Position numbers and translations under genes: made by a program. A DNA stretch of 64,000 nt from an uncultured Victivallis sp. (GTDB lineage: Bacteria; Verrucomicrobiota; Lentisphaeria; Victivallales; Victivallaceae). The stretch lies in NCBI GenBank assembly GCA_944389815.1, contig CALXNS010000125.1, positions 1 to 64,000 of the forward strand, written 5' to 3'. The notes beneath the pieces were generated by a model that searched no databases, had not been told where the DNA came from, and saw nothing but the letters and a program-made list of their open reading frames with translations. This document shows, one piece after another, positions 33,430 through 40,434 of the stretch (position 1 is the first letter of the stretch; every line of letters starts with the position of its first letter).

Positions 33430-34191
33430 ATGAGATACGATCCCAAAAAACACCGACTTCCGCCCTTTCCAGGTTCCGGCGTGCTGCTGGTGGACAAACC
33501 CGCCGGCTGGACCAGTTTCGACGTGGTCAACTTCGTGCGGGCCCGTTTCAACGTACCCAAAGCCGGACACTGCGGCACGCTCGACCCGGCGGCAACCGGA
33601 TTGCTGGTGCTGGTGCTCGGCAAATTCACCCGCCTCAGTCAGAAATTCAGCGGCGAAGACAAAACCTATGAGGCGCGCATGCAGCTCGGTGTGGAGACCG
33701 ACTCCTACGACGGCGACGGCGAAGTCATTGCAACCGGCGACGTTTCCGGAATCACTGAGGGAAAATTGCGCGAAACGCTCGCCGGGTTCATGGGCCGGAC
33801 GATGCAGACGCCGCCGATGTTCTCGGCGGTCAAGGTGGACGGAAAGAAACTTTACGAACTTGCCCGCAAAGGCGTCGAAGTCGAACGCGAAAGCAAGGAG
33901 ATCGAAATCTTCAGCATCGATGTGAATAAGATCGAACTGCCGTACTGCGATTTTACCATGCACTGTTCGAAGGGGACCTACGTGCGCAGTTTCTGCCACG
34001 ATGTCGGGCAGAAACTTGGCTGCGGCGGAATGCTCGTTTCGCTGCGCCGGCTCCGGAGCGGAGCGTTCGATCTCGCCGACGCGGTCACGATCGAACAGCT
34101 TAAAAATTTCGAACAGGCGGATCTGGAGATCCACATCCGCCGTTATCTGGTGGAAAAACTTTCCAGAATCGCGGGGGTGAACCATGCGTGA
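33430..34191 (+). CDS. truB: tRNA pseudouridine(55) synthase
   Basis: 253 residues. Modifies U55 in the T loop of tRNAs. GVLLVDKPAGWTSFDVV at the N-terminus, catalytic Asp in HCGTLDPAATGLLVL (near residue 51), YEARMQLGVETDSYDGDG, QTPPMFSAVKVDGKKLYELARKG and SKGTYVRSFCHDVG are all present. The end of the gene overlaps the next gene by 8 bases. A short C-terminus, with no clear PUA domain, is normal for many bacteria. Confidence 0.97.
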   Translation: MRYDPKKHRLPPFPGSGVLLVDKPAGWTSFDVVNFVRARFNVPKAGHCGTLDPAATGLLVLVLGKFTRLSQKFSGEDKTYEARMQLGVETDSYDGDGEVIATGDVSGITEGKLRETLAGFMGRTMQTPPMFSAVKVDGKKLYELARKGVEVERESKEIEIFSIDVNKIELPYCDFTMHCSKGTYVRSFCHDVGQKLGCGGMLVSLRRLRSGAFDLADAVTIEQLKNFEQADLEIHIRRYLVEKLSRIAGVNHA

Positions 34192-35653
34192 CCAGTCGGA
34201 GGTTCCCTTTTTTGCAATCGAAGAGGCGCTGGAACGCACCGCCGGGAAATACGACGGCAGCATCACCCGGGAAAATCTTCTCCGGGAACTCGGAACGCCG
34301 GAAAGCCCGGCATTGCTCGACAAAATCGAACGCGCCCTCGCAGGCGACGGACGTTTCTTCTCCGACAACGCCGGCAATGGAATTCTGCGGTCGGCATTCT
34401 TCAAAAATTTTCTTTTTCCGGTGACGCCGGACGCGTGGGAGATTGAAAACGGGATTCTCTTTCCGGGGCACCGGTTCGCTCCGTATCTCAATGAAGAAAT
34501 TTTCCCGTCGGAAGTGACGCTGCTCGCGAAAAATGCGGAAATGCCGATCGAAAAACGGGAACTGACCGCTCCCCTCGGGCAAATTTTTCATTACCACATG
34601 CTGCTCGGTTCGGAGCAGGTGTTCGACTTCTTCGTCGCCGACTCGGCGGCGAACGCCCACCTGCCGCGCGCGCCGCAGCCGGAATCTCTGGTGACGCTGC
34701 AGATCTTCGATCTGGCGGAATTTTACAAACGAAACCGCTTCTCGGAAGGGGATGCGCTGCTCTGTTGCGTCGAAGACTATGAAAAAGGAATCATCCGATT
34801 CGAAATGCTCTCGGCCGACGACCGCAGCAACCGCGACGTCAAAGCGTTCGTGGCGGGATACGAAAAGGCTCTGGAAAAGGTGTTCGACCGGTTCGAAAAT
34901 TATCTCGAGATCCCGGAACAGTTGAGCTGGGCGTTCTATTACGGAGCGGAAACCCTTCCCGCCGGAATCCACGCCGCGTCGCTGGATGAATTCGTCCGAT
35001 TGGCGGAGAATGTCGAGATCGATTTCGAAGGCGAACACACCGTGCTCGCGCGCCGGCACAGTTCCGCCGGGGAAGACGATGCGCCGGAACTCCCGGAGGG
35101 GGTTTCCCTGTCGAAGGGGGAGACGCGGGAACTTCCGGCACTCCTCAAGGAGATCGGGTCGCCGCTCACGCCGGTGGAGATCGACAGTTACATTCTCGAC
35201 GCCGCCTACGCGCGGGAGCTGGAGTTCGAAGATTTCTTCGCGCGGGCATTCGGCCGGGAGAAGTTGCGTTTCACCGACGAAGCGCAGCAGGCGGTGTTTT
35301 ACAATTATGTGGAGGATCGGTTCGAGGATCTGACGGGCAACTACGACCGTTACGGCGACGAAGCGAAGGCGCCGCTGCGCACGTCGATTCTCGAATGCGT
35401 CGACGAGCGGCTGGAATTCTTCGATTACCTCGCCTCGGTGGAAAAAAATCCCGACCAGTTGCCGCAGAAATCGCTGCACCGCCTTGCGGAGATCGCGCTC
35501 AGGTTTGGTGAAGTATTGAAGATGTTGAACGATCCGGCCTGCACTCCGGCGGAAAGCGAACTTGAAGAACTCGCCGATGCCATCGCCGCCCACGCCGAGG
35601 AACAGGCCGAAGTGATCGCCGAATTGAGCGACAGTTTCGCCCGGAATGAATAG
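34184..35653 (+). CDS. uncharacterised acidic protein coupled to truB
   Basis: 489 residues; not recognised. Soluble, strongly acidic, no signal peptide and no membrane helix. The first 60 residues (ALERTAGKYDGSITRENLLREL) resemble a small helical or winged-helix segment. The middle has mixed alpha/beta sequence and the last 80 residues are helical with many Glu (SELEELADAIAAHAEEQAE). The ATG overlaps the truB stop by 8 bases, so translation is coupled. Codon use looks like the neighbours. Being inside an information-processing operon suggests a ribosome- or RNA-related role, but that is only inference. Confidence 0.75.
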   Translation: MRDQSEVPFFAIEEALERTAGKYDGSITRENLLRELGTPESPALLDKIERALAGDGRFFSDNAGNGILRSAFFKNFLFPVTPDAWEIENGILFPGHRFAPYLNEEIFPSEVTLLAKNAEMPIEKRELTAPLGQIFHYHMLLGSEQVFDFFVADSAANAHLPRAPQPESLVTLQIFDLAEFYKRNRFSEGDALLCCVEDYEKGIIRFEMLSADDRSNRDVKAFVAGYEKALEKVFDRFENYLEIPEQLSWAFYYGAETLPAGIHAASLDEFVRLAENVEIDFEGEHTVLARRHSSAGEDDAPELPEGVSLSKGETRELPALLKEIGSPLTPVEIDSYILDAAYARELEFEDFFARAFGREKLRFTDEAQQAVFYNYVEDRFEDLTGNYDRYGDEAKAPLRTSILECVDERLEFFDYLASVEKNPDQLPQKSLHRLAEIALRFGEVLKMLNDPACTPAESELEELADAIAAHAEEQAEVIAELSDSFARNE

Positions 35654-35708: not shown

Positions 35709-37289
35709 ATGACTCAGCGTCTGCTTGCAAGCGGCAACGAGGCGATCGCCATGGCCGCGAAAGATGCCGGAGTGCGGCTCGGCGCCGGTTATCCCGGCAC
35801 GCCGTCCTCGGAAATTCTCGAAACGTTCAGCGCACTTGGCGGCCATGCCGAATGGGCTCCGAATGAAAAAACCGCTCTGGAAGTGGCCATCGGCGCGGCA
35901 TTCGCCAACGGCCGTGCCATCGCGACGATGAAGCACGTCGGGTTGAACGTAGCCGCCGATCCGTTGTTCACGATCGCGTACTCCGGCACGCCGGGCGGGC
36001 TGGTGATCGTCAGTGCCGACGATCCCGGGATGGCCTCCAGCCAGAATGAACAGGACAACCGTCGTTACGCGGTGGCGGCCGGTGTGCCGATGCTGGAACC
36101 GTCCGATTCGCAGGAAGCGTATGACTTCACGCGCCGTGCGTTCGAAATTTCCGAAGCGTACCGCCGCCCGGTGCTGTTGCGGGTGACGACGCGGGTGTGC
36201 CATTCGAAATGCGTTCTGGAGCGCCGCGAGGCGGTTGAACCCAAATCGGTGAAATTCGACAAGGATCCGAAATCCAACGTGATGATTCCCGCCTACGCCC
36301 GGATCGCCCACCGCAAACTGCGCGCGGCGCTTCACGAACTGGAAGCGTTGAATGAAAAAGGAGAATTCACCCGGAAGATTGCGGGTTCTCCCGAACTTGG
36401 CATCATCACCTCGGGAATCAGTTTCCAGCACGTGCGCGACGCGGCGCCGGAAGCGTCGATTCTCAAACTCGGCATGACCTATCCCCTGCCGATGGAAACG
36501 ATCCGCGCCTTCGCCGCGTCGGTGAAACGCTGTGTGGTGGTCGAAGAGGGCGACCCGGTTCTGGCTGACGCGATCCGCGCCGCCGGAATTGCGGTGGAGG
36601 ACAAGGCGGAGATGTACCGTTTCGGAGAATTGAACGTCAACCGCGTCCGCCGCCTGCTCGCGGGCGACCTCTCGCCGGAACCGGCGCCCGCGCCGGGCAA
36701 ACCGCCGCAGCTCTGCGTCGGCTGCCCCCACCGCCGGGCATACGAGGTGCTGCGCGACATGAAATGCATCGTCTCCGGAGACATCGGCTGTTACACGCTC
36801 GGTGTATTGCCGCCCTTTGAAGCGGTCGACACCTGCGTCTGCATGGGTGCGTCGATCACGGTCGGGCTCGGACTGCGCCACGTGCTGCCGGAAGCGGAAG
36901 CGCGCCGGGTGGTGAGCGTCATCGGCGACAGCACCTTTCTGCACACCGGAATCAACGGCATCGTCGAAATGGTGTACAACCGGCCGCCGACCGGACACGT
37001 GGTGATTATTCTCGACAACAGCATCACGGCGATGACCGGGCTTCAGGAACACCCCGGCACCGGACGGCTGCTCGATCACACGCCGGCGCCGACGCCGGTT
37101 TCTCTGGAGAAGATTCTGCACGGAATCGGCGTCGATCACGTCGATGTCTGCGATCCGACGCTCGACAAGGCGTCGTTCGAGAAGATTCTTTCCGAACGGC
37201 TCGCGTCGAACGACTGCAGTGTCATCATCTGCCGCCGTCCCTGCATTCTCGGCGCGGTCAAGGCGAAATCTTATGAAGGGAAGAAGTGA
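35709..37289 (+). CDS. iorA: indolepyruvate:ferredoxin oxidoreductase alpha subunit, lacking the C-terminal ferredoxin domain
   Basis: 526 residues. Thiamine-pyrophosphate enzyme that oxidatively decarboxylates aryl pyruvates to aryl-acetyl-CoA. N-terminal pyrimidine-binding domain (GNEAIAMAAKDAGVRLGAGYPGTPSSE, quoted in part) and a C-terminal TPP domain (CVGCPHRRAYE, SGDIGCYTLG, MGASITVGLG, GDSTFLHTGI, LDNSITAMTG). Family members are usually about 600 residues and end with two [4Fe-4S] CxxCxxC motifs. This one stops shortly after CRRPCILGAVKAK, so those clusters are absent. GGAAGGAG precedes ATG 35709. iorB follows at once, then ACT and paaK genes, the usual company. Confidence 0.92.
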   Translation: MTQRLLASGNEAIAMAAKDAGVRLGAGYPGTPSSEILETFSALGGHAEWAPNEKTALEVAIGAAFANGRAIATMKHVGLNVAADPLFTIAYSGTPGGLVIVSADDPGMASSQNEQDNRRYAVAAGVPMLEPSDSQEAYDFTRRAFEISEAYRRPVLLRVTTRVCHSKCVLERREAVEPKSVKFDKDPKSNVMIPAYARIAHRKLRAALHELEALNEKGEFTRKIAGSPELGIITSGISFQHVRDAAPEASILKLGMTYPLPMETIRAFAASVKRCVVVEEGDPVLADAIRAAGIAVEDKAEMYRFGELNVNRVRRLLAGDLSPEPAPAPGKPPQLCVGCPHRRAYEVLRDMKCIVSGDIGCYTLGVLPPFEAVDTCVCMGASITVGLGLRHVLPEAEARRVVSVIGDSTFLHTGINGIVEMVYNRPPTGHVVIILDNSITAMTGLQEHPGTGRLLDHTPAPTPVSLEKILHGIGVDHVDVCDPTLDKASFEKILSERLASNDCSVIICRRPCILGAVKAKSYEGKK

Positions 37290-37291
37290 AA

Positions 37292-37771
37292 ATGGCTGAA
37301 AAAACGATCAACATCACCGTCGCCGGAATCGGCGGTCAGGGGGTTCTGAAATTCACCGACATTCTCGCGGATCTTCTGTTTCACGCCGGATTCGACGTCA
37401 AGAAGAGCGAAGTTCACGGCATGAGCCAGCGGGGCGGATCGGTGTCGAGCGAGGTTCGTTACGGCAGTTCGGTGGCCAGTCCGATGATTCCGGAAGGCGA
37501 GAGCGATTATCTGGTCGTGCTGGAGAATTCCCAGCTGGAAATCAACCGCCACAAACTGCGCGAGGGCGGAATTCTGATTACGCCCGACGACGTGCCGCTC
37601 GACAAACTTACCAACCCCAAGGCGCTCAACACGATGCTGCTGGGCGCGCTGGCCGCCCACCTGGGATTGGATCCCGAACTCTGGATTCGGGAGTTGAAGG
37701 CGTTCCTGCCGGAGAAGCTTCACGCACTCAATGTTGAAATGTTCCAACTTGGATATCAGTACCGGAAATAA
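37292..37771 (+). CDS. iorB: indolepyruvate:ferredoxin oxidoreductase beta subunit
   Basis: 159 residues, the gamma-type domain of 2-oxoacid oxidoreductases. INITVAGIGGQGVLKF (nucleotide-like loop), KKSEVHGMSQRGGSVSSEVRYG and ALNTMLLGALAAHLG are typical. It pairs with iorA, two bases upstream. ATG 37292 is preferred over the GTG at 37286 that overlaps the iorA stop. Slightly shorter than usual. With the alpha subunit lacking its ferredoxin domain, the electron route of the complex is unclear. Confidence 0.93.
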   Translation: MAEKTINITVAGIGGQGVLKFTDILADLLFHAGFDVKKSEVHGMSQRGGSVSSEVRYGSSVASPMIPEGESDYLVVLENSQLEINRHKLREGGILITPDDVPLDKLTNPKALNTMLLGALAAHLGLDPELWIRELKAFLPEKLHALNVEMFQLGYQYRK

Positions 37772-37787
37772 CGGGGGAGGTCACATC

Positions 37788-38216
37788 ATGCCGATCAAAC
37801 AGTTGTCGCTCTTTGTGGAAAATCGTCCCGGCAGCCTGAGTGCGGTCTGCAAAATTCTCAAGAAGGAGAACTTGAGCATCCGCACCCTGTCACTGGCCGA
37901 CACGCAGCAGTTCGGAATTCTGCGGCTGTTGATCAAGGAATACGATCAGGCGCGCGTCGCGCTGGAAAAGGCGGGGTTCATCGTCAAGGTGACCGACGTG
38001 CTGGCCATCGAAGTGCCGGACCGTCCGGGCGGGCTTTCGGACATTCTGGAGATTCTCGACCGTCACAAGCTCTCGGTGGAGTACATGTACGCCTTCACCT
38101 TCGGCAACGACGACCGGGCGGTGATCGTCTTCCGGTTCGAAGATCCCGAAGGCGCGATCAAGCTGCTGAAGGATGAACCCATTACGATGGTCAAAGCGGA
38201 AACGCTCTTTAAATAA
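37788..38216 (+). CDS. tandem ACT-domain protein
   Basis: 142 residues, two ACT domains: residues about 4-65 (LSLFVENRPGSLSAVCKIL) and about 70-140 (IEVPDRPGGLSDILEIL). ACT pairs bind amino acids and often act as small sensors. The placement between iorAB and paaK is common in anaerobes and suggests sensing of an aromatic amino acid, probably adjusting aryl-pyruvate or aryl-acetate metabolism. GGGGGAGG precedes ATG 37788. The ligand is not known from sequence. Confidence 0.9.
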   Translation: MPIKQLSLFVENRPGSLSAVCKILKKENLSIRTLSLADTQQFGILRLLIKEYDQARVALEKAGFIVKVTDVLAIEVPDRPGGLSDILEILDRHKLSVEYMYAFTFGNDDRAVIVFRFEDPEGAIKLLKDEPITMVKAETLFK

Positions 38217-38231
38217 TGGAGCGTCGGTAAA

Positions 38232-39557
38232 ATGTCACCATTTGTGATTCCCAATCGGATCTTCGACCCCGCCGCGGAATGCATGCCGCGGACTGAACGG
38301 GCCGGATTTCAGGCAACCCATCTGCGGCGGACGGTGGAACAGGCGCGGAAGATTCCGTTCTATCGGCGGAAGTTCGCCGAAAAACACATCACGGCCGATT
38401 CCATCCGCAGCGTCGAGGATCTGCAGCGGCTGCCGTTCACGACGAAACAGGATCTGCGTGAAGCGTATCCCTTCGGTTTCTTCGCGGTGCCGCGCTCGGA
38501 ACTGGCCCGCGTGCACGCTTCCAGCGGCACGACCGGGAAACCGACGTTTGTCGGTTACACCCGCAACGACATGAAGATCTGGGCGGGGTTGTGTGCGCGT
38601 TTTCTGGTTGCGGGCGGCTTGACCGCCGATCAACTTGTACAGGTGTCCTTCGGCTACGGGCTTTTCACCGGCGGCTTCGGGCTGCATCAGGGGATCGAAC
38701 GGGTCGGCGCGGCGGTGCTGCCGGCATCGAGCGGAAACACCCAGCGCCAGATCATGCTGCTGCGCGATGCGAAAATCGATACGTTGATCTGCACGCCGAG
38801 TTATGCGCTCAATCTCGCGGAGGTCATCGCGGCGCAGGGGATCAAGCGCGGCGAACTCGCGTTGAAATTCGCCCATTTCGGCGGCGAACCGTGGACCGAG
38901 GAGATGCGCTGCGCGGTCGAATCCGAACTCGGGATTTTCGCGTTCAACAATTACGGGCTTTCGGAGATCATCGGCCCCGGCGTCGCCGGCGAATGCGCGG
39001 CCCGGACCGGCATGCACATTCAGGAGGATCATTTCCTCGTCGAATGCCTCAACCCGGAAACGCTTGAACCGGTACCGGAAGGCGAAGAGGGCGAACTGGT
39101 CATTACCTCTCTCACCAAGGAAGCGTGTCCGATCATCCGTTACCGGACGCGGGATCTGGCGCGGCTCTATTACGATCCGTGCCCGTGCGGCCGCACGACG
39201 ATCCGCATGAGCCGGATCAAGGGGCGTTCGGACGACATGATGATCATCCGCGGCGTCAACGTCTTCCCGACGCAGATCGAGGAGGCGCTGCTCAAGGTGG
39301 ACGGCACCGCGCCGCATTTCATGATCGAACTGACCCGTCCGGGCAATCTCGACGAAGCGGTCGTCAAGGTGGAAATGCGTCCGCAGGAGTTTTCCGACAA
39401 GATGGAGGCGATGCACCGGTTGCGCGACAACATCTCCCGGGAAATCACCGCGATCACCGGATTGCATTTCCACGTCGAACTGGTCGAACCCAATACGCTC
39501 GAACGCTTCACCGGAAAAGCGAAGCGCGTCATCGACAAACGGAACCTTTCCTGTTGA
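38232..39557 (+). CDS. paaK: phenylacetate-CoA ligase
   Basis: 441 residues, adenylate-forming enzyme. Activates phenylacetate, or in this context indoleacetate/hydroxyphenylacetate, with CoA and ATP, or runs in reverse to conserve ATP from aryl-acetyl-CoA made by IorAB. Motifs: HASSGTTGKPTFVGYT (ATP loop), FGYGLFTGGFG, NNYGLSEIIGPGVAGEC, YRTRDLARL, and GRSDDMMIIRGVNVFPTQIE near the C-terminal hinge. The length is normal. It follows the ACT gene by 15 bases. Confidence 0.95.
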   Translation: MSPFVIPNRIFDPAAECMPRTERAGFQATHLRRTVEQARKIPFYRRKFAEKHITADSIRSVEDLQRLPFTTKQDLREAYPFGFFAVPRSELARVHASSGTTGKPTFVGYTRNDMKIWAGLCARFLVAGGLTADQLVQVSFGYGLFTGGFGLHQGIERVGAAVLPASSGNTQRQIMLLRDAKIDTLICTPSYALNLAEVIAAQGIKRGELALKFAHFGGEPWTEEMRCAVESELGIFAFNNYGLSEIIGPGVAGECAARTGMHIQEDHFLVECLNPETLEPVPEGEEGELVITSLTKEACPIIRYRTRDLARLYYDPCPCGRTTIRMSRIKGRSDDMMIIRGVNVFPTQIEEALLKVDGTAPHFMIELTRPGNLDEAVVKVEMRPQEFSDKMEAMHRLRDNISREITAITGLHFHVELVEPNTLERFTGKAKRVIDKRNLSC

Positions 39558-39573
39558 AAAACGGAGGAGGCGC

Positions 39574-40434
39574 ATGGCGTTTTTGAACAAACCGGCCGTC
39601 CGGAGAATTCTCCGGGCCGTTCTTCCCGGAGGGAGTTCCCTCCGGGGAGCCGCGGCAGGATGCGTCGTCGCCGCGACGATGCTGTTTTTCGTCGTGGCGG
39701 GAACGGGATGCAGTTCGGTGCCGTACACCGGACGCACGCAGCTCAACTTCTACAGTGAAGAAAGCGACATCCGCCTCGGCGAAGAGGCGTGGCGCGAAAC
39801 CCTTGCCCAGGAGAAACGTTCCACCGATACGCGTTACAACAGCGCGCTGCAACGGGTCGGCGCCAATCTGGCGCGGGCGGCGGAACGGGATGATTACAAG
39901 TGGGAATTCGCGGTCTTCGAATCCAGCCAGATCAACGCCTTCGCCCTGCCCGGCGGCAAGGTTGCGGTTTATTCGGCACTCTTTTCGCTGACGAAAAACG
40001 ATGCCGAACTCGCCACGGTCGTCGCCCACGAAGTCGGTCACGCCATCGCCCGTCACGGCGTTGAACGCATGAGTCAGGGGACGGTTCGATCGATCGGCGG
40101 CGTCGCCGTCGAATGCATTTTCGGTTCGGAATGGAACGCCGTCTACGACGGCGGCTCTCAGCTCGCGCTGATGCTCCCCTACAGCCGGACGCAGGAGTAT
40201 GAAGCCGATGAACTCGGCCTCATTCTGATGGCAAAGGCCGGATATGATCCGGCGAACGCCATCACCTTCTGGACGAAATTCGCCGAAATGAACCGCACCT
40301 CCGCATTGGAAGAATTCCTCTCCACCCACCCGGACGGCGGGAAACGGCTGGAGGAACTCCGCAACCTGCTCCCGCGCGCGAACGAATATTATCGCGCCGC
40401 GCCGAAAAAATTGGGTGCGGGAAATTCGATTTGA
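39574..40434 (+). CDS. M48-family metallopeptidase, exported
   Basis: 286 residues. The N-terminus has an Arg-rich segment and a hydrophobic stretch ending VVAGTGCSS. A lipoprotein is possible, but the residue at -3 of the Cys is Gly, not the usual Leu/Val. The zinc-protease motif HEVGHAIARH lies near residue 153 and the third ligand is probably in EYEADELGL. It resembles LoiP/BepA-like periplasmic M48 proteases that act on outer membrane proteins. GGAGGAGG precedes ATG 39574. Last gene of the nusA-led unit, followed by a hairpin terminator. Confidence 0.9.
   Translation: MAFLNKPAVRRILRAVLPGGSSLRGAAAGCVVAATMLFFVVAGTGCSSVPYTGRTQLNFYSEESDIRLGEEAWRETLAQEKRSTDTRYNSALQRVGANLARAAERDDYKWEFAVFESSQINAFALPGGKVAVYSALFSLTKNDAELATVVAHEVGHAIARHGVERMSQGTVRSIGGVAVECIFGSEWNAVYDGGSQLALMLPYSRTQEYEADELGLILMAKAGYDPANAITFWTKFAEMNRTSALEEFLSTHPDGGKRLEELRNLLPRANEYYRAAPKKLGAGNSI

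Follow-up and report, generated by a model that had tools for sequence, protein, structure and literature searches.

Indolepyruvate oxidoreductases (IORs) belong to an enzyme type that catalyses conversion between aromatic keto acids and activated aromatic acids in either direction. Two-subunit KorAB/OFOR enzymes (e.g. 6n2n and 5b48) are not known to contain a ferredoxin domain and have a soluble ferredoxin as their partner, and full-length IORs likewise donate electrons to an external ferredoxin. A precedent is provided by the two-subunit, ferredoxin-linked KOR of M. tuberculosis, which has the motif CxGCGXnGDGXnC, described as the cluster site of the KOR beta subunit (PMC2773412). For methanogens, the combination of an Ior with a phenylacetyl-CoA ligase has been interpreted as arylacetate assimilation (PMC6737245). 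Our literature searches found neither a description of an IOR alpha subunit (IorA) without its ferredoxin domain nor any biochemistry of a short IorA.

The IorA of the present study shares with full-length IorA (TIGR03336 / IPR017721) the alpha-beta fusion, the thiamine site, the inner-cluster cysteines and the IorB partner, and both forms often have PaaK and ACT neighbours. It differs from full-length IorA by the absence of the C-terminal 2[4Fe-4S] domain, by a lower TIGR03336 score and by an IorB that is about 35 aa shorter. Its likeness to 6n2n and 5b48 consists, as judged by sequence pattern, in the lack of a ferredoxin domain and a single CxxC...C...C site beside the thiamine diphosphate, and in ferredoxin as presumed partner. 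However, KorAB/OFOR enzymes have an alpha-gamma fusion and a separate beta subunit, whereas the present system combines an alpha-beta fusion with a separate gamma subunit, IorB (PMC13285125).

Architecture of the short IorA and IorB

In the window (the whole stretch of DNA that was analysed, 64,000 nt) iorA is followed on the plus strand by iorB, a gene for a pair of ACT domains and a paaK-like ligase gene (Table 1). The original prediction on IorA was given for positions 35709-37771; this span covers IorA and IorB together, and IorA alone ends at 37289. A 489-aa open frame (34184-35653) lies directly upstream of iorA.

Table 1. Positions of genes and predicted sites of the iorAB cluster within the window
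Feature	Position	Strand	Basis
Short IorA (indolepyruvate oxidoreductase alpha-like), 526 aa	35709..37289	+	TIGR03336, POR_N, TPP_enzyme_C; clade A in trees
Codons of Cys336, Cys339 and Cys361 (three of four predicted inner [4Fe-4S] ligands)	36714..36791	+	Invariance; ligand role predicted
Codon of Cys512, predicted fourth ligand	37242..37244	+	Invariance; followed by 14 residues and stop
Short IorB (gamma-type subunit), 159 aa; ATG at 37292, stop ends 37771	37292..37771	+	PF01558 in two stretches
iorB site without ~35 residues found in long-type IorB	37580..37600	+	Alignment; borders approximate
ACT domain pair protein, possible amino acid sensor	37788..38216	+	PF19571, 89.6 bits
PaaK-like phenylacetate-CoA ligase (AMP-forming)	38232..39557	+	TIGR02155, 518.5 bits (below the cut-off of 646.3); PF14535 and PF00501

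TIGR03336 is the best curated model for the window IorA. The match covers positions 5-538 of 595 with 547 bits, which is below the cut-off of 650.9 of this IOR_alpha equivalog model, and the uncovered end is the region that carries eight cysteines in full-length members. Pfam finds POR_N and TPP_enzyme_C only, both in one chain. The claimed absence of the C-terminal 2[4Fe-4S] domain is thus confirmed. When the entire window was searched in six frames, no CxxCx(2-4)CxxxC/P motif appeared at 36500-39600; it was therefore correctly predicted that no frameshift can restore the domain. In the alignment, the eight cysteines of the ferredoxin domain are present in 78 of 78 long rows and in none of the short rows, and the tail beyond Cys512 has a median length of 18 aa in clade A (the short sequences that group with the window protein, see below) versus 71 aa in the long forms; it comprises 14 residues in the window IorA. 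The window IorA is a real, conserved variant of the IOR alpha subunit and should be kept apart from the regular members of TIGR03336.

Cys336, Cys339, Cys361 and Cys512 are invariant in clade A (80/80), in two further groups of short sequences, types B (4/4) and C (6/6), in the single short sequence L077 and in all 78 long rows. Cys378 is variable; it is found in 73 of the 80 clade A rows and is replaced by Asp in types B and C. No short row deviates at the thiamine-site residues Glu53, Asp407, Asp436 and Asn437. The CxxC motif and the following GC were aligned by profile to the beta subunit of oxalate oxidoreductase (5c4i, E 0.0029), and the cysteine pattern of the window IorA fits the KOR beta site CxGCGXnGDGXnC (PMC2773412). 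We infer that the four invariant cysteines are the ligands of a [4Fe-4S] cluster beside the thiamine diphosphate. Because the predicted inner-cluster cysteines are fully kept, the design matches that of ordinary 2-oxoacid oxidoreductases without ferredoxin domain. Note that published counts for OGORs without this domain and for related enzymes differ, which weighs against a one-cluster reading. About 7.5 Fe per protomer were reported for the C. tepidum OGOR and read as two clusters (PMC9855186), and for the catalytic cluster of HpdF three cysteines, not four, were named (PMC13285125).

An AlphaFold2 model of the window IorA, calculated with 38 aligned relatives, had a mean pLDDT of 87 and a pTM of 0.80. 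Foldseek placed it among thiamine enzymes, with the OGOR alpha chain 6n2n_A in third position (E 1.1e-17). Solved relatives found by sequence were exclusively alpha chains of 2-oxoacid oxidoreductases (E values of 1e-16 to 1e-3; 6n2n_A also by profile), and no solved IOR structure was among the sequence-search matches. Most likely, the short IorA works like the OGOR/OFOR enzymes without ferredoxin domain and keeps the subunit fusion of IORs.

IorB is shortened as well. PF01558 (POR) matches the window IorB in two pieces (1-93 and 120-173), and the best stretches with NF005322 and TIGR03334 end at positions 97 and 91, respectively, and then break. In the alignment, the ~35 aa missing relative to long-type IorB correspond to an internal gap; the motifs GxGGQG and HGMSQRGG are kept. 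Counted from the GxGG motif to the stop, the IorB proteins of clade A, identified at 74 of its 80 loci, comprise 143-172 residues in 73 cases and 535 residues in one IorB-PaaK fusion (median 147.5), and those found in 49 of 78 long loci comprise 180-199 residues (median 183). Outside clade A, the length is 180-181 in type B (4/4), 181 in type C (found in one of six) and 183 in L077. A strict coupling of the IorA and IorB deletions was rejected, as a full-length IorB accompanies the domain-less IorA of type B (L072-L075) and of L077; loss of the IorA domain does not, as type B shows, require the IorB deletion. The two deletions are coupled inside clade A only and may have arisen in one event. 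Natural gene fusions were also observed: a Planctomycetaceae bin encodes a short IorA-IorB fusion in one 712-aa frame (L113:1576-3714), and in a Chloroflexi bin IorB is fused to a PaaK-like ligase (L115:6684-8366, 560-aa frame).

Distribution and phylogeny of the short type

A short orthologue of about equal length and 77-84% identity is present in all eight same-genus relatives. Some kind of TIGR03336 match was obtained for 40 of 41 genomes (the source genome and 40 relatives) and, among 288 genomes of the phylum, for 235, of which 39 exceeded the cut-off. The comparison of IorA lengths across the phylum that had been suggested as a check yielded 77 genomes with the short type (source genome included), 48 with the full-length type and 13 in which the two types occur together. 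For this count, the short type is defined by at least 56% identity to the window protein and the full-length type by a match that reaches position 595; a fragment (G033) is excluded, neither class contains types B and C or the genome of L077, and G010 was counted as short-only although its second copy runs off the contig end. Four genomes of the source genus have both forms (G001, G005, G007 and G008), and their full-length gene is arranged differently, as iorB-paaK-iorA. The window IorA is 44-50% identical to full-length rows of the same phylum.

A recent deletion, a frameshift or an assembly error, which the missing domain taken alone would suggest, was rejected in view of the domain-less orthologues in all eight same-genus relatives and in 77 of the 288 phylum genomes and of the lack of a hidden motif, and its probability is practically negligible. 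Full-domain relatives at the same locus, named at the outset as the sign of such an event, were not what we found: the orthologue is short in all eight same-genus relatives and in a clade that extends across phyla.

In a scan of species genomes, 41 sequences without and 39 with the ferredoxin domain were obtained among the matches listed (80 of 590 relatives); those without it are L092-L131 and L136, and L170, which escaped the motif because of its spacing, is long in trees and residue counts. Among these listed matches, the short type occurs in Lentisphaerota/Verrucomicrobiota, Planctomycetota, Acidobacteriota, Chloroflexota (Chloroflexi), Hydrogenedentota and Fibrobacter, and also in Myxococcota (Myxococcales, Anaeromyxobacter) and purple sulfur bacteria/Gammaproteobacteria (Thiocystis, Halochromatium, Thioalkalivibrio). 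The carriers are mostly metagenome bins; isolates are Thiocystis violacea DSM 207 and Anaeromyxobacter oryzae Red232. The sample leans toward relatives of the window protein because the searches started from that protein, and Bacteroidota lie outside it.

In a tree of 169 rows, calculated after removal of the columns of the missing domain, the 80 short rows form clade A (SH-aLRT 99), with three changes of domain state in total. This tree contains duplicate genes: the 80 clade A rows hold 78 distinct sequences, and the 78 long rows hold 69. A tree of 53 rows, in which 18 of the 80 clade A rows were used, supports clade A with 100/100, and types B and C are likewise supported. A KorA/VorB-like paralogue (L002) and a sequence cut at a contig end (L076) were left out of trees and counts. 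Types A, B and C are placed apart in the best trees, and a single origin of A+B (p-AU 0.126) or A+B+C (p-AU 0.066) is not rejected by topology tests. As the trees are unrooted, the changes may be read as loss or gain of the domain. Type B (44-47% identity) combines its short IorA with the full-length IorB and is placed among the long forms. Type C (L055, L056, L062-L064 and L088; 39-42% identity) is a deep-branching, short IorA-like group, and neither PaaK nor ACT was found near its loci. L077 (2290-3849) is a single long-branch row; its short IorA ends five residues past the last cluster cysteine, and one TGA lies within a longer match. The short IorA is an old, widespread and apparently functional subtype and not a broken gene.

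Electron partner and alternative explanations

According to the original prediction, loss of the domain would make the enzyme dependent on an outside carrier. Electron exit to an external partner holds, but the emphasis has to be changed: full-length IORs also use an external ferredoxin, and the missing part is therefore an internal relay and not the acceptor, with the inner-cluster cysteines being kept. A stand-alone 2[4Fe-4S] ferredoxin of 56 aa is encoded elsewhere in the source genome (L179:1474-1644, contig C93). The check for a small co-occurring ferredoxin gene, suggested at the outset, was made by similarity to this protein (E below 0.01): such a gene was found at 0/80 clade A loci, many of which have only 1.5 kb of flank, at 0/4 type B and 0/6 type C loci, and at one of 78 long loci. 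The source genome has 24 Fer4_7 matches, including this ferredoxin, a 1181-aa PFOR-like frame (C16) and, next to a KorA-like gene (C84), an 86-aa frame with Fer4. As no ferredoxin gene is tied to the operon, the identity of the partner is a guess; the free 56-aa ferredoxin is the simplest candidate and has no specific link to IorAB.

One could assume that the lost domain has been replaced by a dedicated subunit encoded elsewhere, e.g. an Fe-S protein, a flavodoxin or a flavoprotein. HpdDEFG has the ferredoxin part as a separate subunit (PMC13285125), and the PFOR-like C16 frame and the C84 Fer4 frame show that other oxidoreductases of the source genome keep a 2[4Fe-4S] module. However, the C84 frame belongs to its own operon, no candidate occupies a conserved position in the 15 neighbourhoods listed, and no ferredoxin-like gene was found at the 80 clade A loci within the flank available, so that we regard a dedicated partner as unlikely. 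Still less probable is an adaptation to oxygen, by which the domain would have been lost because its exposed outer clusters are oxygen-labile. A COX1 match (E 1e-20 or better) is present in 100 of 288 phylum genomes, and a COX1-type oxidase was detected in 7/64 short-only, 0/35 long-only and 0/13 genomes with both forms (Fisher p 0.049, kinship ignored). This pattern is a weak hint, as the seven carriers come from only three families and a COX1 match is absent from 57 of the 64 short-only genomes, including the source genome. Air stability is reported for the two-subunit KOR of M. tuberculosis, but O2-sensitive KORs are noted in the same paper to have the same cluster site (PMC2773412).

Besides OGOR, the fold model is similar to acetohydroxyacid synthase and benzoylformate decarboxylase, which would also suit a non-oxidative arylpyruvate decarboxylase or carboligase that uses the same thiamine scaffold without oxidoreductase chemistry. 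Such a function is very improbable given the invariance of the four cluster cysteines in 80 of 80 rows, the conserved GxGGQG and HGMSQRGG motifs of IorB and the PaaK-type neighbours, which fit a CoA thioester.

Proposed role in arylacetate metabolism

The short IorA is probably an ancient IOR subtype with one inner cluster that would exchange electrons directly with a soluble ferredoxin and, together with the ACT pair and PaaK, serve arylacetate activation and reductive carboxylation. This assignment builds on the observed absence of the domain, its conservation, the clade, the cysteine pattern and the neighbourhood. The residues of the thiamine diphosphate site are conserved; we assume that a single inner [4Fe-4S] cluster is also retained and that electrons pass between the thiamine intermediate, this cluster and a soluble low-potential ferredoxin, which presumably docks directly on the inner cluster as in two-subunit OGOR/OFOR enzymes. 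PaaK would activate arylacetates, which the short IorAB would then reductively carboxylate to arylpyruvates, leading to aromatic amino acids, and the ACT pair would be consistent with feedback control through an amino acid.

At least 3.5 kb of downstream sequence was available for 50 clade A loci, of which 39 had PaaK and 33 the ACT pair (long loci: 30/40 and 20/40). These neighbours suggest a putative function in arylacetate assimilation, although PaaK was not within range in 11 of the 50 eligible clade A loci, which counts against this assignment. In short-type clusters such as L105, L106 and L097, the ACT gene lies between two PaaK-like ligase frames, which perhaps serve different arylacetates. 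The same gene pairing is known for the methanogen Ior with phenylacetyl-CoA ligase, to which we liken the system from the published description (PMC6737245). AMP-forming ligation spends ATP and therefore suits arylacetate uptake and reductive carboxylation, the direction in which the short IorAB presumably works by analogy. Chorismate synthase was present in 25 of 25 genomes tested, and the source genome also has prephenate dehydratase; arylacetate assimilation would thus be salvage and not a need.

We further consider, tentatively and with some doubt, that the short clade is a distinct old subclass in which the route of electron exit is reshaped by the deletions of the ferredoxin domain in IorA and of ~35 residues in IorB; a soluble ferredoxin would thereby gain direct access to the inner cluster, and the enzyme would be tuned toward reductive carboxylation of arylacetyl-CoA. 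If this were true, genomes with both forms would run oxidative and reductive arylpyruvate metabolism on two enzymes.

Since 13 of 288 genomes, including four from the source genus, encode both forms, related enzymes with one versus three predicted clusters can be compared, and short and full-length IorA represent a natural test of the role of the two outer clusters. The curated TIGR03336 model under-calls the family, with 39 of 288 genomes passing the cut-off versus 77 that have the short type. Recognition of the short type is of moderate value when the metabolism of arylacetates and aromatic amino acids is to be predicted for bacteria from gut and sediment.
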